Shown: positions 14,458 through 44,338 of the stretch, one piece after another
Position numbering within the stretch: position 1 is the stretch's first letter
Layout: every line of letters begins with the position of its first letter
IMG/VR virus record: IMGVR_UViG_3300046718_000034
Span: 1-44,338 of that record
DNA length: 44,338 bases
From: a virus
Reading direction: 5' to 3' (one strand)
Position numbers and translations under genes: made by a program
Notes under the pieces: model-generated
The model's database searches: none
Seen by the model: the letters and a program-made list of their open reading frames with translations, nothing else
What the model was told of the DNA's origin: nothing

Positions 14458-15474
14458 ATGGCCGTTGCAAGTTATGGAACAACCAACCCACGTGGTCTAG
14501 AGCCGTGGCCGATTGAGAGCACACTTGCTCCACTGGCAGTTGGTAATGATCGTGCTCAAGCACAGAACATGCTTGACATGTATCAGATGCAGCGTGGTGC
14601 TGCTGCGAACGTGTATGGAGAGGACCTGCAAGCGCAGCATGATTATGCGTATCAGCAACTTGCGCAGCAGATGGCTGAGGCACGATTGAAGGCTACGCCA
14701 GAGCTACTCAAGACACCGGGTGGTGCATCGCTGCTTGGTCCTGGTGGCATTCCAGGGATGGGTCAGGATACTGATCCAGGTGTTATGCAGGATGCAATGA
14801 CTAGAGCCAACGCTGCTGTAGCTGCTGAGAATTTGCAGAAATCTGGCACAGGACTGAACCAGCTATCACAAGGTGGTTATGGGACTACGCCACAGACTGC
14901 ATCAGGAGTAACAGGTCTACCAATTCCAGCATATAGCGGTCCAGCACTGGCACAGGCCGCTACGATACGCGGGCAGTATCAGCTTGCAGGTGATCGGATA
15001 AAAGCTGCTGCTGGTGGAGGCGGCGGTGCTCCCATAACTGAAGAAGGCACTGATCCAGAAACAGGACAGAAGGTGTCGTTCCGTGGTGGAGGTAAAATAT
15101 CTGATAAGGCATTCAATGACGCGAAAAGTCGATATACTGTGCCAATTGATAGGCAACTTCCTCCTCCTGCGCTCCCTGGGGGAACTACAGTAGCACCGTC
15201 AGACACGACAACTAAACCAGCAGCGACACCAACAACACAACCAGGAACAGGCAGCGGTGGTGGAGGCACACCACGGAATATGCAAGCAGGTGCAAACGCT
15301 GTGCAACAGATGGTGTTGGCTAATCAGGATAAGTTGGAGTCAGTGTTTGGGAAAGATGGTGCTGCTGATATTGCACGAGGGATAAAAGCCAACAACAACA
15401 TGCCAGTTGTCGCACTTGATCCCAAAGGATACAATGGCTGGGCAATCGTTGGAGCAAGTGGAAAACACTACTGA
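14458..15474 (+). CDS. Internal virion / ejection-type protein, unknown
   Basis: 338 aa. Helical and Gln/Ala-rich at the N-terminus (QMQRGAAANVYGEDLQAQHDYAYQQLAQQMAEARLK, about residues 42-75 in parts), then Gly- and Thr/Pro-rich linkers (GGGGGAP, TKPAATPTTQPGTGSGGGG) and a compact end of about 70 residues (VFGKDGAADIARGIKANNN). It follows the previous gene by 11 bp and overlaps the large 1405-aa gene by one base. Probably one of three ejection-type proteins in a row; function is inferred from order and composition. Confidence 0.6.
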   Translation: MAVASYGTTNPRGLEPWPIESTLAPLAVGNDRAQAQNMLDMYQMQRGAAANVYGEDLQAQHDYAYQQLAQQMAEARLKATPELLKTPGGASLLGPGGIPGMGQDTDPGVMQDAMTRANAAVAAENLQKSGTGLNQLSQGGYGTTPQTASGVTGLPIPAYSGPALAQAATIRGQYQLAGDRIKAAAGGGGGAPITEEGTDPETGQKVSFRGGGKISDKAFNDAKSRYTVPIDRQLPPPALPGGTTVAPSDTTTKPAATPTTQPGTGSGGGGTPRNMQAGANAVQQMVLANQDKLESVFGKDGAADIARGIKANNNMPVVALDPKGYNGWAIVGASGKHY

Positions 15475-18400
15475 TGGCAGAACTAGGCACAGGCACAGAC
15501 AGTTCTGGTCTACTCGGCGGTGACGATCTAACACTAGCAGAACGGCTGGCAATAGACAAACGTGCACTGAAAACAGGCACGATGATGCCGAATGCTGTGG
15601 CTGCCATCGCTCCGTCAATGGCTTGGCGTGATCCAGACCTGTCTTACGGTGCGCAGTATCTACCCGGTGCAGGGCTTGTCGAAGGCATAATCGGATTAGG
15701 TAGTTATCTAGGCGACAAGGCATCTGCATTGGGCAACGCAGCACTCAACGCTGTGAAACCCGAGTGGGGCTTGCACATTCCAGAACCGCCAGAGTGGATG
15801 CGTAAAGCTGGTGAGCATTCGGCACAACTCACTGCTGACTGGCAGAACTCAATTGATAAGTGGACAGGAGGAGCATTACCGAAGCCTGATCCAACAACAC
15901 CAGAGGGGCAGGTTGCAGACATTGCTGGGTCTGCGATTGGTATGGGACTTGGTGTTACACCAGGATCATGGGCACGAACGATAACAGGACTGTTGCCACG
16001 CGGCACCAAGACATTGGGAACGATGTTGATGATGCCAACGGGAGCACCAGCAGAGACTATTCCGTTACAGTTAGGGGTTGCTACTGCACAGACGGCGGTA
16101 GATAATGCAGGTGTAACTACACCAGTGGCCGGAGGACAAACTACGCAGCCTGCTGATCCACGAACAGCAGTATTTGGTGCAACACAGCCCCCACCGACGG
16201 ATGCTACGACGCAACCAGATGCAACTGCTGTGGCACCTACATCACCTACACCCCCTCCACCTACACAAGTCACTCCTGCGACCGATCCACGTGCTGTATT
16301 ATTTGGTGCTCCTGCGTCCACGACAGATCAATCAGATGATCCACGCGCAGCACTGTTCAATCAAGCAGCAGGACCGACGTTCACACAGCAGGGCAACACA
16401 GATACTCCTTTATGGAAAACAGGATTGGGACTGCTTACTGGACTTGCATTGGTGGCTGCTGGTAGACGCACACATGAGATGGGAACACAGATTTCAGAGG
16501 CTGGTCGTGAAGCACGCTTCAACGATCCAGCATATGCTGCAAAAGAACAAGCCTACCAAGCAGATGTTATCTCACGTGGACCGAATGGCACATCGTTGTT
16601 GCCTCCTGGCGGATCACCTACACCAGCACCGACTCCACAGGGTAATATATTACACAGGGGATTGGTAAACACTGCACAGGGCTTGGTGAATGATACTGCG
16701 CAGGGGCAGGATTACTTCAGGCTGACATCTGCTGATCCTGCTATGGCAGAACGTTTGTCTGCAATGTATGGCAACACATATGATGCACGATATCAGCAGG
16801 ACAGGACCAGCAACTTCCTACGGACAGGTCATGACGAAGATACTGGAATTACTATACCGAGTATGGTGGACCTGCTCAATGATCGTGCATCACTGCCACG
16901 AGACAAAGCAGATATGCTAGCTGAGGGACTACGCGCAGCGAACGAAAAGAACACACGTGATTGGAACAGAACACAGTGGAAGCAAGCACACCCTGATGAG
17001 GAACCACTGCATGAGGACATTGCGCATGACTTCATTGGTCATGGCACAGACTTCTTGGACCAGAAGATTGCAGCCATGCAAGCTGATCCACAGCTTGCAG
17101 AGATGCAGGAACGCTACAAACAGATTGCTACGGGTATGCCTACTATCGGTGAACATCCTGCCTATAATTTCTTCTCTCCAAGTGAAGCAGAGGATCTGAG
17201 AACTATTCGTCCAGACTACGTGCCAGAGCAAGACATCAATGGTAGGGCTGTGCATCCATTTGGTCCTCGCGACACGTCCGCATTTACTGGTCAGGCACAG
17301 ATAACGTCTGATCCAATACGTGATATGGCGGCACATGTCGAACAACTGTATCCGCAGTTTGCACGCAACAGGTTCAATCAGGAAGTGAAGAACCACCAAA
17401 TGGATAATGTGCAGCGAGTTCCTGGTGCTGCACAATCTATGACAAATGTGCAGGCACCAACTGGTGCACATGCATCCTACTACCCAACTGGTGGATTGCC
17501 TGACGTTGGTGGTCAGGCTCGCGATCCTATCGTATCTGTTCGCACCGGGACCGGCGTGGAGTATTTACGCAACGACGATCCACTCACCTATCACATGATG
17601 ACAAATCATAGCCTTGGATCGGCTCGTGTTGCACTCGGTTCAGCGAATACGGCACGCAGATTGTATCAACAATCTACCACAGGGCTTGGCGCAGCCGTAT
17701 TGTCTGGTCGCATCACAGGGATTCGCACAGGAATTGCTGAAGCAATTATTGGTCCACTCAATGCCAAACCAAACATGCGAGCAGGACTGGTTGATACAGC
17801 TCTACAACGTCTATCACCTGGGCCACGAACGACTAAAGTGTTGCAACCCTTAGCACGTGGTTTAGATATCCCCCTCAATGTTCCACCTGTGGTAGCTAGC
17901 TATTTCACAGGTGTTGGGGATCGGCGGATCAAGAACTTCGCAGACATATTCCATCCCGATGCAACGAACATAGTCAATAAGCAGTTTCGTGCAGCCGCTG
18001 GTAATGCCGTCGTTGACGCTATACACAAGATGGCAAATGACAGATGGCAACAGAGCACGACGCGATGGCTGCATGAGGACTTGGGCATAACGGGTGCAGG
18101 ATCAGCAGTCCATCTTGATGCCCCAGGCGTGGTGACTGGCACGCGCGGTGGACCATTTAGTAACTCACCTGAGGGCATACGATCACTGGCAGCTAACTTG
18201 GCGCCACGTGCATACTTCAGTGCAGACTGGAGAGGCACAAAACCGTTCTTCATCAGCCTACGCAATGCGGTTGGTGAAGCACTCGATCATATCAACGATG
18301 CTGGCTTGGACTACTCAGGCAGGTTGAATAAGAACAACCCGAACATTAGCAAAGAGGCGCTGAGATACAACATACGTGGTCTGTATGGTAATCCTGCTAG

Positions 18401-19691
18401 ACAGGGCAGCAACCGCTTCGTGCGTGGAGCCACCAGCATTGCTCCTTGGTCCAACATTGCCATGCAAGAACTTGGCTCGACAGGAAGTGCAATAGGCAGG
18501 CGACCATTTGGTTCAGCCGTAACGATGGCAACAGGACTTGGATCGTTGGCTGCACTGGAAATCCTGACACACATGCGTAGCCAAGCGCACATGGACTTCT
18601 TGCAGAACCAACTCAGCACGCAACAGCGTGAAGCAAACGTCGCACTTGCACTGAACAGTGATCCAACCAAGCCAACGATGATCCCTCTGCCGCGTAGTGT
18701 GCGCGCAGGCTACGCATTCATGCTCGACGTAATGTCAAAGGCAATCAACACCGTGGCTGCATACCACGATCCAGTCACGTTCAATGGTGTGTGGGAGGGA
18801 TTGAAGGACTTCCTTGGTGGTCACATTACTACCAGCAACGCAATGGCAATGCAGAATGCTGGTGCAGACATGTTCGATTTTATCAACCCACCACCATACC
18901 TTGGTCACTTGGACTATCATGCCATGATCCAAAATGGATTGGCAAACCTACCAAGTGCATTCCACGGTGTAGGGTCTGGACCAATTGACAAGACGATACC
19001 AGGAGAAGCACCTGCTACGATGTGGGACTCGAAGCCAATGGAGATTTTTAAGAACATACTATCAAACACGCTCGGTGCAGCAGCGGCCACGGTATTCAAC
19101 ACGACAGGTAACATATCACGCTACCAGACGCAGGGGCATTCATTCTTGGACAGCGTTGGAATGGCTGGCAGAGATTGGTTGCAGACTGCACGCGAAAGCA
19201 ACATGGCAACCAGCAACATGCCGTGGGAGACAACGATCCGGTTATCTATGCGTCCGCCAATTGCTGAGGCACTCTCACCGACGCTCCTTAATCTCAAAGC
19301 ACTTCCTCCCATGCCTAAGCCGTCACAGGCAGGTATTGCAGGTGGTAGATCACCTGTGCCTGTGATTACAACTGGTGAGGAACTTGTTTCACACGATCCA
19401 GCTATGATAAACATGTTGCAGATCGCACATGCATATGGACAGCGGATTGACCAAGCAATGCTCCCAATCAAAGCTATCCAAGCAGAGATGGGATCAGTGT
19501 CAAAGTATGGTATGAACCCACAGGATAGGCGGGAATGGCTGAACCAGGCAACACGTAATATGGCTGACCATTATAAATTGGTTCAGGCATACACAGGTGA
19601 CATGTATAATGTGTTGAGTAAGTTGGCGGGGAAACCAATCAGCAACCTCGGTGCCATCAAATGGAACCAGGGCACTGAGCAGTTCCGTTAA
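15474..19691 (+). CDS. Large internal virion protein (1405 aa), unknown
   Basis: The longest gene, last of the late operon. The N-terminal 330 residues are Pro/Thr/Ala-rich and contain three copies of a short DPR(T/A)(A/V)(V/L)F motif at residues 228, 271 and 289. A Gly/Leu/Ala hydrophobic stretch (WKTGLGLLTGLALVAAG) sits near residues 310-328. The remainder is mainly helical with a central DWNRTQWKQAHPDE region and a later IGRRPFGSAVTMATGLGSLAALEI stretch that may interact with membranes. Size and position fit the largest podovirus ejection protein (as T7 gp16), which spans the periplasm in infection. No lytic transglycosylase or peptidase signature was found. Only 81 bp separate its stop from the convergent DUF3987 gene, with only weak hairpins. 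Confidence 0.65.
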   Translation: MAELGTGTDSSGLLGGDDLTLAERLAIDKRALKTGTMMPNAVAAIAPSMAWRDPDLSYGAQYLPGAGLVEGIIGLGSYLGDKASALGNAALNAVKPEWGLHIPEPPEWMRKAGEHSAQLTADWQNSIDKWTGGALPKPDPTTPEGQVADIAGSAIGMGLGVTPGSWARTITGLLPRGTKTLGTMLMMPTGAPAETIPLQLGVATAQTAVDNAGVTTPVAGGQTTQPADPRTAVFGATQPPPTDATTQPDATAVAPTSPTPPPPTQVTPATDPRAVLFGAPASTTDQSDDPRAALFNQAAGPTFTQQGNTDTPLWKTGLGLLTGLALVAAGRRTHEMGTQISEAGREARFNDPAYAAKEQAYQADVISRGPNGTSLLPPGGSPTPAPTPQGNILHRGLVNTAQGLVNDTAQGQDYFRLTSADPAMAERLSAMYGNTYDARYQQDRTSNFLRTGHDEDTGITIPSMVDLLNDRASLPRDKADMLAEGLRAANEKNTRDWNRTQWKQAHPDEEPLHEDIAHDFIGHGTDFLDQKIAAMQADPQLAEMQERYKQIATGMPTIGEHPAYNFFSPSEAEDLRTIRPDYVPEQDINGRAVHPFGPRDTSAFTGQAQITSDPIRDMAAHVEQLYPQFARNRFNQEVKNHQMDNVQRVPGAAQSMTNVQAPTGAHASYYPTGGLPDVGGQARDPIVSVRTGTGVEYLRNDDPLTYHMMTNHSLGSARVALGSANTARRLYQQSTTGLGAAVLSGRITGIRTGIAEAIIGPLNAKPNMRAGLVDTALQRLSPGPRTTKVLQPLARGLDIPLNVPPVVASYFTGVGDRRIKNFADIFHPDATNIVNKQFRAAAGNAVVDAIHKMANDRWQQSTTRWLHEDLGITGAGSAVHLDAPGVVTGTRGGPFSNSPEGIRSLAANLAPRAYFSADWRGTKPFFISLRNAVGEALDHINDAGLDYSGRLNKNNPNISKEALRYNIRGLYGNPARQGSNRFVRGATSIAPWSNIAMQELGSTGSAIGRRPFGSAVTMATGLGSLAALEILTHMRSQAHMDFLQNQLSTQQREANVALALNSDPTKPTMIPLPRSVRAGYAFMLDVMSKAINTVAAYHDPVTFNGVWEGLKDFLGGHITTSNAMAMQNAGADMFDFINPPPYLGHLDYHAMIQNGLANLPSAFHGVGSGPIDKTIPGEAPATMWDSKPMEIFKNILSNTLGAAAATVFNTTGNISRYQTQGHSFLDSVGMAGRDWLQTARESNMATSNMPWETTIRLSMRPPIAEALSPTLLNLKALPPMPKPSQAGIAGGRSPVPVITTGEELVSHDPAMINMLQIAHAYGQRIDQAMLPIKAIQAEMGSVSKYGMNPQDRREWLNQATRNMADHYKLVQAYTGDMYNVLSKLAGKPISNLGAIKWNQGTEQFR

Positions 19692-31890: not shown

Positions 31891-32126
31891 TACTGTGTGC
31901 TCCCATGTAGACATGAGTTGAGTAGTTGCTGAATGATAGCCATGCTGTGCCTAGCACGCACATCGACATACCAGATGAATACACCCAGGAATATGACGTT
32001 GACGAGAAGCAGTGCTAGGAATTGTGGCGCTAAGCTGTGAACAACCTGCGCACTGAAGCGAGAAACGGCACTGACGATGCCAGTGCCGTTCCCCCCGTTC
32101 GCGTTGTGGTTAGGCGAAGATACCAC
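31890..32126 (-). CDS. Single-span membrane protein (holin-like candidate)
   Basis: 78 aa with an Asn/Gly-rich N-terminus, then one clear hydrophobic span FLALLLVNVIFLGVFIWYV (about residues 36-54) and a short polar, basic-start C-terminus with one Cys. The only start is GTG at 32126, inside the last codons of the PEP-CTERM gene, without a clear ribosome site; translation may be coupled. A perfect hairpin lies in its coding region. Similar one-span phage proteins exist, some acting as holins or spanins; here function is unknown. Confidence in the start is low. Confidence 0.5.
   Translation of the reverse strand: MVSSPNHNANGGNGTGIVSAVSRFSAQVVHSLAPQFLALLLVNVIFLGVFIWYVDVRARHSMAIIQQLLNSCLHGSTQ
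32064..32090 (-). terminator. Perfect hairpin after the PEP-CTERM gene
   Basis: AACGGCACTG (32064-32073) pairs perfectly with CAGTGCCGTT (32081-32090), with a 7-base loop. On the minus transcript it follows the PEP-CTERM stop (32110) by about 20 bases and is followed by TCTCGCTT. It also lies inside the proposed coding region of the 78-aa membrane protein. It may be a weak terminator or a translation-coupling structure. Confidence 0.5.
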
Positions 32127-32748
32127 GACGCTTGGTCATGACGAGGCCAAGCAGGCCAACGCCAAGCAAGCCGAGTGTCATCGGCTCAGGCACGGCAACA
32201 TTGGCACTGAATGTGCCACTCACAGATGACGTGAACGAGCCGATGCTGTCACCGACGATCTCGAACGCGGGTGCGATGTTAGCGAACCCGAGACCTAAAG
32301 CGGCAGGCAACGACAGCGACGTGATCACATCACTGGTGAAGCTCAGTGCATCAGGTGGTGCACCGACAGCCAACGCACCGCCAGGACCACTGCCGAACGT
32401 AACGTCAGTGAACGTCCCACTCAGCAAATTGACACCTGTATCACCAGGGCCACTCGTGATTGAGAAGTCACCACTGAACCGTTGTGCAGAACCACCGAGG
32501 ATTGGCACTGCTGAACCAACGGATGTTGCGTTCAGATCAAAGAACGCAGCCTGTGGCAGACCATTCTGTATCTGCGTGACACTGATTGCCACGTCAGATG
32601 CAGAGAGTGTGGTCTGTGTCTGTGCTCCATTCTCAGTTGCAGTCACAGCGGAAGTGCTTGCTGTCTGTCCGAAGGTCAGGATCAGATCAGCATGAGCCAG
32701 TGAAGTCGAAGCAAGCAGAGCAAGCATAGCGATAGCATACTTCGTCAT
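32110..32748 (-). CDS. Exported PEP-CTERM domain protein
   Basis: 212 aa. Residues 1-20 (MTKYAIAMLALLASTSLAHA) are a textbook Sec signal peptide with an AHA cleavage site. The C-terminus has the full PEP-CTERM tripartite signal: VPEP at 186-189, a hydrophobic span (LGLLGVGLLGLV), and KRR at 206-208. Proteins with this tail are processed by exosortase in Gram-negative bacteria and displayed or released with exopolysaccharide. The middle is beta-rich, low in Cys, Ser/Thr/Gly-rich, typical of such surface proteins. AAGGAC precedes the ATG. It is unusual in a phage and presumably acts on the host envelope. No exosortase is encoded here, so the host's would be needed. Confidence 0.88.
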   Translation of the reverse strand: MTKYAIAMLALLASTSLAHADLILTFGQTASTSAVTATENGAQTQTTLSASDVAISVTQIQNGLPQAAFFDLNATSVGSAVPILGGSAQRFSGDFSITSGPGDTGVNLLSGTFTDVTFGSGPGGALAVGAPPDALSFTSDVITSLSLPAALGLGFANIAPAFEIVGDSIGSFTSSVSGTFSANVAVPEPMTLGLLGVGLLGLVMTKRRGIFA

Positions 32749-32757
32749 TGCATGTCC

Positions 32758-33177
32758 TTACTTTGGTTGAGCGTGTGGAGGCAGTGCATTGTCGGGTCGT
32801 AGGCTGGGGTCCACTGCTACATACTTCCAGCCGTGGTTCGGCGTGTAGCACAACATCCAATACGTATTGTAGATTGGTGGTGTGGGCACGCCGCCACTCG
32901 GTGGTGTTGGTGGGCGAGGAGTTGGGAGTGTGTTGTCGATCCCTGGTGGAGTTGGCCAGATGGTGCCAGGAGGAATGCTAGTGCCCGGTGGGATGGGCAC
33001 GATGGGGTTGCTGATCGTGGGTGGAGGAAAGACACCAGGGGGTGCAGGAGGAAGCTCATTGTCGATCCCAGGCTGTTCTCCGGGTAGGCTGTTGTCGATC
33101 CCAGGCTGTGATCCAGGCAGTTCGTTGTCAGGATGACCACCAGACCTCACACGCAGGAAACCAGATACAAACGGCAT
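32758..33177 (-). CDS. Pro-rich DNxLP-repeat protein
   Basis: 139 aa from ATG 33177, AAAGGAC 8 bases before. It has repeats of the short motif DN(E/S/T/A)LP: DNELP, DNSLP, DNELP, DNTLP, DNALP, spread through a Pro/Gly-rich body with PPGTSIPPGTIWPTPPG, and a compact aromatic part near residue 107 (YNTYWMLCYTPNHGWKYVAVDP). Similar PDNSLP-type proteins occur in alphaproteobacterial phages and prophages. No signal peptide. The gene ends 9 bp before the PEP-CTERM start, so the two form a pair in one transcript. Function not known. Confidence 0.7.
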   Translation of the reverse strand: MPFVSGFLRVRSGGHPDNELPGSQPGIDNSLPGEQPGIDNELPPAPPGVFPPPTISNPIVPIPPGTSIPPGTIWPTPPGIDNTLPTPRPPTPPSGGVPTPPIYNTYWMLCYTPNHGWKYVAVDPSLRPDNALPPHAQPK

Positions 33178-43886: not shown

Positions 43887-44338
43887 CTAAACGATACAAG
43901 ATCATCGAAGGTGGAATGCATGATCGCTTCCACAAGTCAACGAAGAAGGTGCAATTCATCGGTGGTGGGTTCGGTAATGGCAAAACTGCTGCGACATGCA
44001 TCAAGGCGTTGAAACTGTGCAAGGACTATCCTGGGTGCAATGGGCTGATTGCACGATCCACCTATCCGAAGCTGAATGACACGATACGCAGGGAGTTCTT
44101 GTCATGGTGCCCGACACATTGGGTCAAGCGCATGCCGAGCCGAGACGAGAACACGCTTCTATTGAAGAATGGTTCTACGGTGAACTTCCGATATGTTGCA
44201 CAACAGGGCAAGCAGACAGAGGACTCGAAATCCAACTTGCTGTCTGCGACATACGACTGGATCGTGGTGGATCAGTTGGAGGACCCTGAGTTCTCACACA
44301 AGGACTTCATGGACCTGATGGGACGGTTACGTGGCAAT
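43883..44338 (+). CDS. terL: Terminase large subunit (N-terminal part; continues at base 128)
   Basis: The first 152 codons of TerL, ATG 43883 overlapping the stop of the spike gene (ATGA). Walker A GGFGNGKT is at residues 28-35 after the strand KVQFI, followed by helix AATCIKALKL and the LIARSTYPKLNDTIRREF segment typical of terminase ATPases. The frame runs off the end of the window and continues at base 128 after the 127-bp overlap; total 515 aa. Confidence 0.93.
   Translation, partial: MTKRYKIIEGGMHDRFHKSTKKVQFIGGGFGNGKTAATCIKALKLCKDYPGCNGLIARSTYPKLNDTIRREFLSWCPTHWVKRMPSRDENTLLLKNGSTVNFRYVAQQGKQTEDSKSNLLSATYDWIVVDQLEDPEFSHKDFMDLMGRLRGN
44212..44338. repeat. Terminal direct repeat, right copy
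   Basis: Exact copy of bases 1-127, lying inside terL. See the left copy for the interpretation as a circular closure overlap. Confidence 0.95.

Follow-up and report, generated by a model that had tools for sequence, protein, structure and literature searches.

The analysed stretch of DNA (44,338 nucleotides, hereafter the window) carries a gene for a PEP-CTERM protein located among replication genes, and a gene for a proline-rich protein precedes it on the same strand (Table 1). The putative terminator or processing site past the PEP-CTERM gene is a strong hairpin with a fold energy of –33.1 kcal/mol over 59 nt (z –6.3). The AAGGA site and the stop codon of the proline-rich gene overlap, and the stable hairpin lies past the PEP-CTERM stop codon. 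The two genes therefore seem to form the final part of a single transcript. The first 128 bases of the window recur at its end as a direct terminal repeat (1–128 = 44211–44338). Therefore, the phage genome is regarded as complete, and the record represents a phage genome of about 44.2 kb that maps as a circle. Its genes include those of a terminase, a portal, a major head protein, tail proteins, PolA, a primase/helicase, a Dda-like helicase, a Sak4-like protein and endonuclease VII. No tyrosine integrase or tRNA gene was found in this genome. In PolA, the closest named phages are only about 25–28% identical to the window. A 1405-amino-acid protein encoded at 15474–19691 on the plus strand has no Pfam or PHROG match. 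Its identity to the protein at the corresponding position in the related record G001 is only 22%, and it has diverged far more than the adjoining replication genes.

Table 1. Features of the PEP-CTERM locus in the window.
Feature	Positions	Strand	Basis
PEP-CTERM gene, 212 aa	32110..32748	–	Translation; TIGR02595 and PF07589 above cut-off; relatives in >40 viral contigs
Signal peptide codons, residues 1–20, predicted cleavage after AHA	32689..32748	–	Sequence; aligned signal peptides of relatives; N-terminal helix in model
Mature domain codons, residues 21–185, predicted all-beta, barrel-like	32194..32688	–	Model, mean pLDDT 81
PEP-CTERM tail codons, residues 186–208 (VPEP, hydrophobic helix, KRR)	32125..32193	–	Sequence; TIGR02595; model
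AAGGA ribosome-binding site of PEP-CTERM gene, overlapping stop codon of upstream gene	32755..32759	–	Sequence
Strong hairpin just past PEP-CTERM stop codon, terminator-like or processing site	32060..32094	–	Fold energy, z-score
Gene of proline-rich companion (139 aa counted from the ATG), located 9 bases upstream of PEP-CTERM gene	32758..33177	–	59–72% identity in four other phages

Sorting tags and predicted structure

The translated PEP-CTERM gene begins with the signal peptide MTKYAIAMLALLASTSLAHA, continues with DLILTFGQ and ends with AVPEPMTLGLLGVGLLGLVMTKRRGIFA before the stop codon. A Sec-type signal peptide was predicted from the n-, h- and c-regions, the AHA motif, a predicted helix and the alignment, in which the signal peptides of the relatives are conserved in kind. 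In the tail, VPEP (186–189) is followed by a hydrophobic span (190–205) and KRR (206–208). Both surface-sorting signals had been described in an earlier note on this DNA, and the signal peptide ending in AHA and the three parts of the tail were confirmed as described. The check with PEP-CTERM profiles suggested in that note was also positive, since both profiles scored over their curated cut-offs. The scores were 22.2 bits for TIGR02595 (cut-off 16; E 9.5e-7 in a genome-wide search) and 23.0 bits for PF07589 (cut-off 20.7). The named NCBIfam families THxN (NF038125, 33 bits against a cut-off of 85), PepA (NF033554, 30.9 against 80) and FxDxF (NF038126, 17.1 against 50) remained below their whole-protein cut-offs, and their matches were centred on the tail. 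The combination of PEP motif, hydrophobic span and basic residues occurred in one of the 213 long reading frames of the window, compared with none of the 11,280 frames in shuffled windows. This tail is kept in all 41 complete homologues in other viral contigs (29 distinct). A chance origin of the tail was ruled out by these two counts. As the earlier note had stated, the phage lacks the sorting enzyme: no exosortase over the cut-off was found in the window or in 12 related records. The sole match, from the record G017, was sub-threshold and ran across a stop codon, and it was rejected as a phage-encoded exosortase.

In a structural model obtained with 28 sequences (mean pLDDT 81), the mature domain is all-beta and barrel-like and is flanked by the helices of the signal peptide and the tail. 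An earlier model from 21 near relatives was dropped because of its pLDDT of 58 and the absence of a usable match. The Foldseek search with the mature-domain fold gave no match at E ≤ 0.001. The best VIA-align result (Z 8.3, rmsd 4.0 over 125 residues) was level with those for other barrels, and its Z is in the range of common arrangements. Comparison with the dirigent/AOC-like barrels and PloI4/PyrI4 gave only weak barrel matches. These point to no clear fold family and were set aside as a basis for function.

Distribution, companions and domain exchange among phages

A tblastn search with the protein against 50,697 phage and 72,556 plasmid records found no relative in a named phage or plasmid. 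In IMG/VR, 34 loci and then 44 loci were obtained, mostly with 60–75% identity over the matched part. The search for other viral PEP-CTERM proteins that the earlier note had advised thus gave relatives in more than 40 contigs, with the tail present in every complete one. The carriers of the gene family include dozens of soil viruses. In an alignment of 28 phage proteins with widely differing mature domains, the E and the second P of the motif never vary. The overall dN/dS of the gene was 0.23, which reflects purifying selection. Among closer pairs the values were 0.18 for the mature domain, 0.18 for the tail and 0.36 for the signal peptide.

The carriers are diverse. Among 28 carrier records, the PolA of the window was found in G001 only (72% identity). 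G001 is a true relative of the window and also has its PEP-CTERM gene among replication genes, but at another place, between helicase and PolA. The portal is P22-like in a second group of carriers, which includes G011 and G028. In G011, the terminase large subunit (L085 6446–8593) seems to hold an intein-like (Hint) insertion. An integrase is present in the carriers G002 and G017. In the 40 kb compared, G002 has the proline-rich gene alone in common with the window, besides the PEP-CTERM gene. The gene order varies between carriers. As judged from these sequences, the PEP-CTERM gene is present in phage lineages of at least three unrelated kinds. The tree places the G002 copy (L007) together with that of G001 (L006) and that of the window, so the gene has been transferred between phages. 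A single cluster, moderately supported (84/51; 81% of bootstrap trees), contains the phage copies and separates them from the cellular copies.

In 33 of 45 PEP-CTERM loci, the proline-rich gene is encoded on the same strand as the PEP-CTERM gene, and several of the remaining loci are cut off by contig ends. It was also found in phages without a PEP-CTERM gene in the fetched DNA, so the tie between the two genes is loose. The proline-rich family, with about 80 IMG/VR loci (L151–L230), is wider than the PEP-CTERM family; its proteins contain repeats (PGIDNSLP, for example), end in a conserved TYWxLxYxPxxGWxY motif and have no Pfam or PHROG match. A beta-helix gene (PF13229) is a frequent third member of the module. 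Neither companion has an evident signal peptide. In the locus L245, two tandem PEP-CTERM genes are followed by the beta-helix gene and then the proline-rich gene, and the whole cassette is flanked by terminase and portal. In L243 and L240, the second PEP-CTERM gene encodes a different mature domain with a tail above the TIGR02595 cut-off; the tandem pairs are located at L240 6867–8387 and L243 3492–4928. The PEP-CTERM gene belongs to a widespread, recombining, multi-gene module rather than being a single curiosity.

Two pairs of loci point to recombination. Between L249 and L011, the signal peptide is 100% identical (93% in DNA), the mature domain 40% (45% in DNA) and the tail 76% (79% in DNA). 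Between L164 and L166, the mature domain is 100% identical (96% in DNA) and the signal peptide 33% (53% in DNA). Elsewhere in the family, the signal peptide evolves faster than the mature part. These sequence patterns are therefore best read as recombination in which the mature domain moves between phages without its signal peptide. Since the two patterns are opposite, the case for exchange is strong.

Cellular homologues and the probable host

A profile search of 397 Acetobacteraceae genomes found full-length homologues in five of them at E < 1e-20, with 38–50% identity (G424, G277, G307, G107 and G335). No homologue was found at 1e-10 in a class sample of 385 genomes and a phylum sample of 398. 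Two narrow peptide patterns run against cell genomes also retrieved no relative; this reflects a limit of the patterns, since the profile search did find homologues. The Acetobacteraceae proteins resemble the phage protein in their full-length homology, signal peptide and C-terminal tail. They differ in being chromosomal, one of them sitting among housekeeping genes, and in falling outside the phage group in the tree. They are also multi-copy in two genomes, where G277 and G307 (L132–L146) have at least seven paralogues each, with VPAP instead of VPEP.

Exosortase was matched in 134 of the 397 genomes, including four of the five homologue carriers, and about two thirds were without a match. 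The beta-helix companion has its closest cellular relatives in Acetobacteraceae (two of three matches). The window primase has no relative in Acetobacteraceae and the window tail protein only weak ones. The GC content is 52% in the window phage and 64–69% in the Acetobacteraceae genomes with homologues. Acetobacteraceae is the probable host family of the window phage, although its primase and tail protein gave no link to a host.

Proposed role of the phage protein

The earlier note had proposed that the phage addresses a protein of its own to the host exosortase pathway. The proposal is supported by the sequences: the tags are kept in every complete homologue and are under selection, the phage has no exosortase and the inferred host family often has one. 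None of the outcomes that the note would have taken as a refutation turned up. The predicted routing to this pathway is well supported at the sequence level, and from it we infer processing by the host exosortase and surface display. The argument of the same note on timing, that a gene on the early strand would be made in infection rather than packed in the virion, is weak and does not extend to other carriers. In relatives, genes of this family are flanked by helicase and PolA or by terminase and portal. The varied position indicates that timing is not a fixed property.

The explanation that we consider probable is as follows. The phage would carry a captured and adapted host-type PEP-CTERM protein, which would be made in the infected cell along with the product of the adjacent upstream gene, the proline-rich companion. 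It would be exported by Sec and cut after AHA, and its C-terminal helix would anchor it in the inner membrane. The host exosortase would then process it at the PEP motif and hand the small barrel-like domain to the cell surface or the polysaccharide layer, where the displayed domain may alter the surface of the infected cell. The likeliest benefits would be superinfection exclusion, through the masking or altering of a surface on which other phages depend, or the adjustment of the surrounding matrix. Exclusion is a tentative first guess, because a fixed route is combined with varying displayed domains. A change in matrix or attachment is almost as likely, if somewhat more doubtful, and some other benefit is just as conceivable as exclusion. 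Points against the explanation are the share of sampled Acetobacteraceae that have no exosortase match, the VPAP motif in the closest multi-copy cellular homologues, the results for the window primase and tail protein in that family, and a fold that gives no hint of function.

Other explanations were weighed. The phage substrate may act as a decoy that floods the sorting enzyme and keeps host PEP-CTERM proteins off the surface, so that the mature domain matters little. The tail is indeed the part common to all, including the tandem genes with different mature domains. However, purifying selection acts on the mature domain as strongly as on the tail (dN/dS about 0.18 each), and the domain has a well-ordered predicted fold, which a decoy would not need; we regard a decoy as unlikely. 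The tail could also be a plain anchor, with the PEP motif as an inherited remnant and the protein staying in the inner membrane independently of exosortase, for example to block the entry of rival DNA. The host of the window phage is a deduced one and two thirds of the sampled Acetobacteraceae have no exosortase match, which favours an anchor, but the invariance of E and the second P over the 28 phage proteins is more than an anchor needs. Such a membrane protein is quite improbable.

A role in the virion or its assembly, with the PEP-CTERM protein of a structural cassette meeting virions at the membrane, is suggested by the cassette between terminase and portal in L245. The beta-helix fold (PF13229) of one companion is common in tail spikes. 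Since the companions have no evident signal peptide and the L245 module lies among packaging genes, the companions themselves may act in the virion. For the PEP-CTERM protein this is unlikely, because its Sec signal and tail would direct it out of the cytoplasm, the site of virion building, and its gene is among replication genes in the window and G001. Chance capture of a host gene useless to the phage would agree with the homologues in Acetobacteraceae and with the differing gene position between phages. Purifying selection and the tail intact in 41 of 41 complete copies speak against such a passenger and against gene decay, as do the single phage group in the tree and the recurring companions, and this origin is very improbable.

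The preferred reading, display on the infected cell through the host exosortase route, has counterparts in known systems. Phages are known to make superinfection-exclusion surface proteins, for example lipoproteins that coat or block receptors. The present protein is similarly phage-made and, as predicted from its sequence, sent to the host envelope; it differs in having an exosortase tag instead of a lipobox, and exclusion is here a guess. It has the same N-terminal signal and tripartite tail as the PEP-CTERM/exosortase sorting of Gram-negative bacteria (EpsH, PF09721; TIGR02595, PF07589). In contrast to the bacterial systems, it is encoded in a recombining module by phages without the sorting enzyme. 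PEP-CTERM proteins function in surface, floc and biofilm formation (PMC12188702, PMC9850573). A Yellowstone virus survey lists exosortase-tailed viral genes of the TIGR03118 family (PMC11003980). These belong to another protein family and are a census entry without analysis of host, module or domain exchange. Besides this entry, open-licence papers contained only co-mentions of phage with PEP-CTERM or exosortase, and earlier reports may exist elsewhere. Phage surface cargo with a host sorting tag has apparently not been described beyond the census mention.

PEP-CTERM/exosortase sorting has so far been treated as a host matter of exopolysaccharide and biofilm. If the proposed role is true, the exosortase pathway is a target of phage takeover, and this could explain some surface changes in infected soil bacteria. 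More speculatively, unrelated phages might share a recombining display cassette for the exosortase route, in which the tags are kept and the displayed domains are swapped, and the outcome, for instance the exclusion of rivals, would depend on the type of domain displayed. With its natural sets of displayed domains that can be interchanged, the phage family is also useful material for studying the exosortase pathway.
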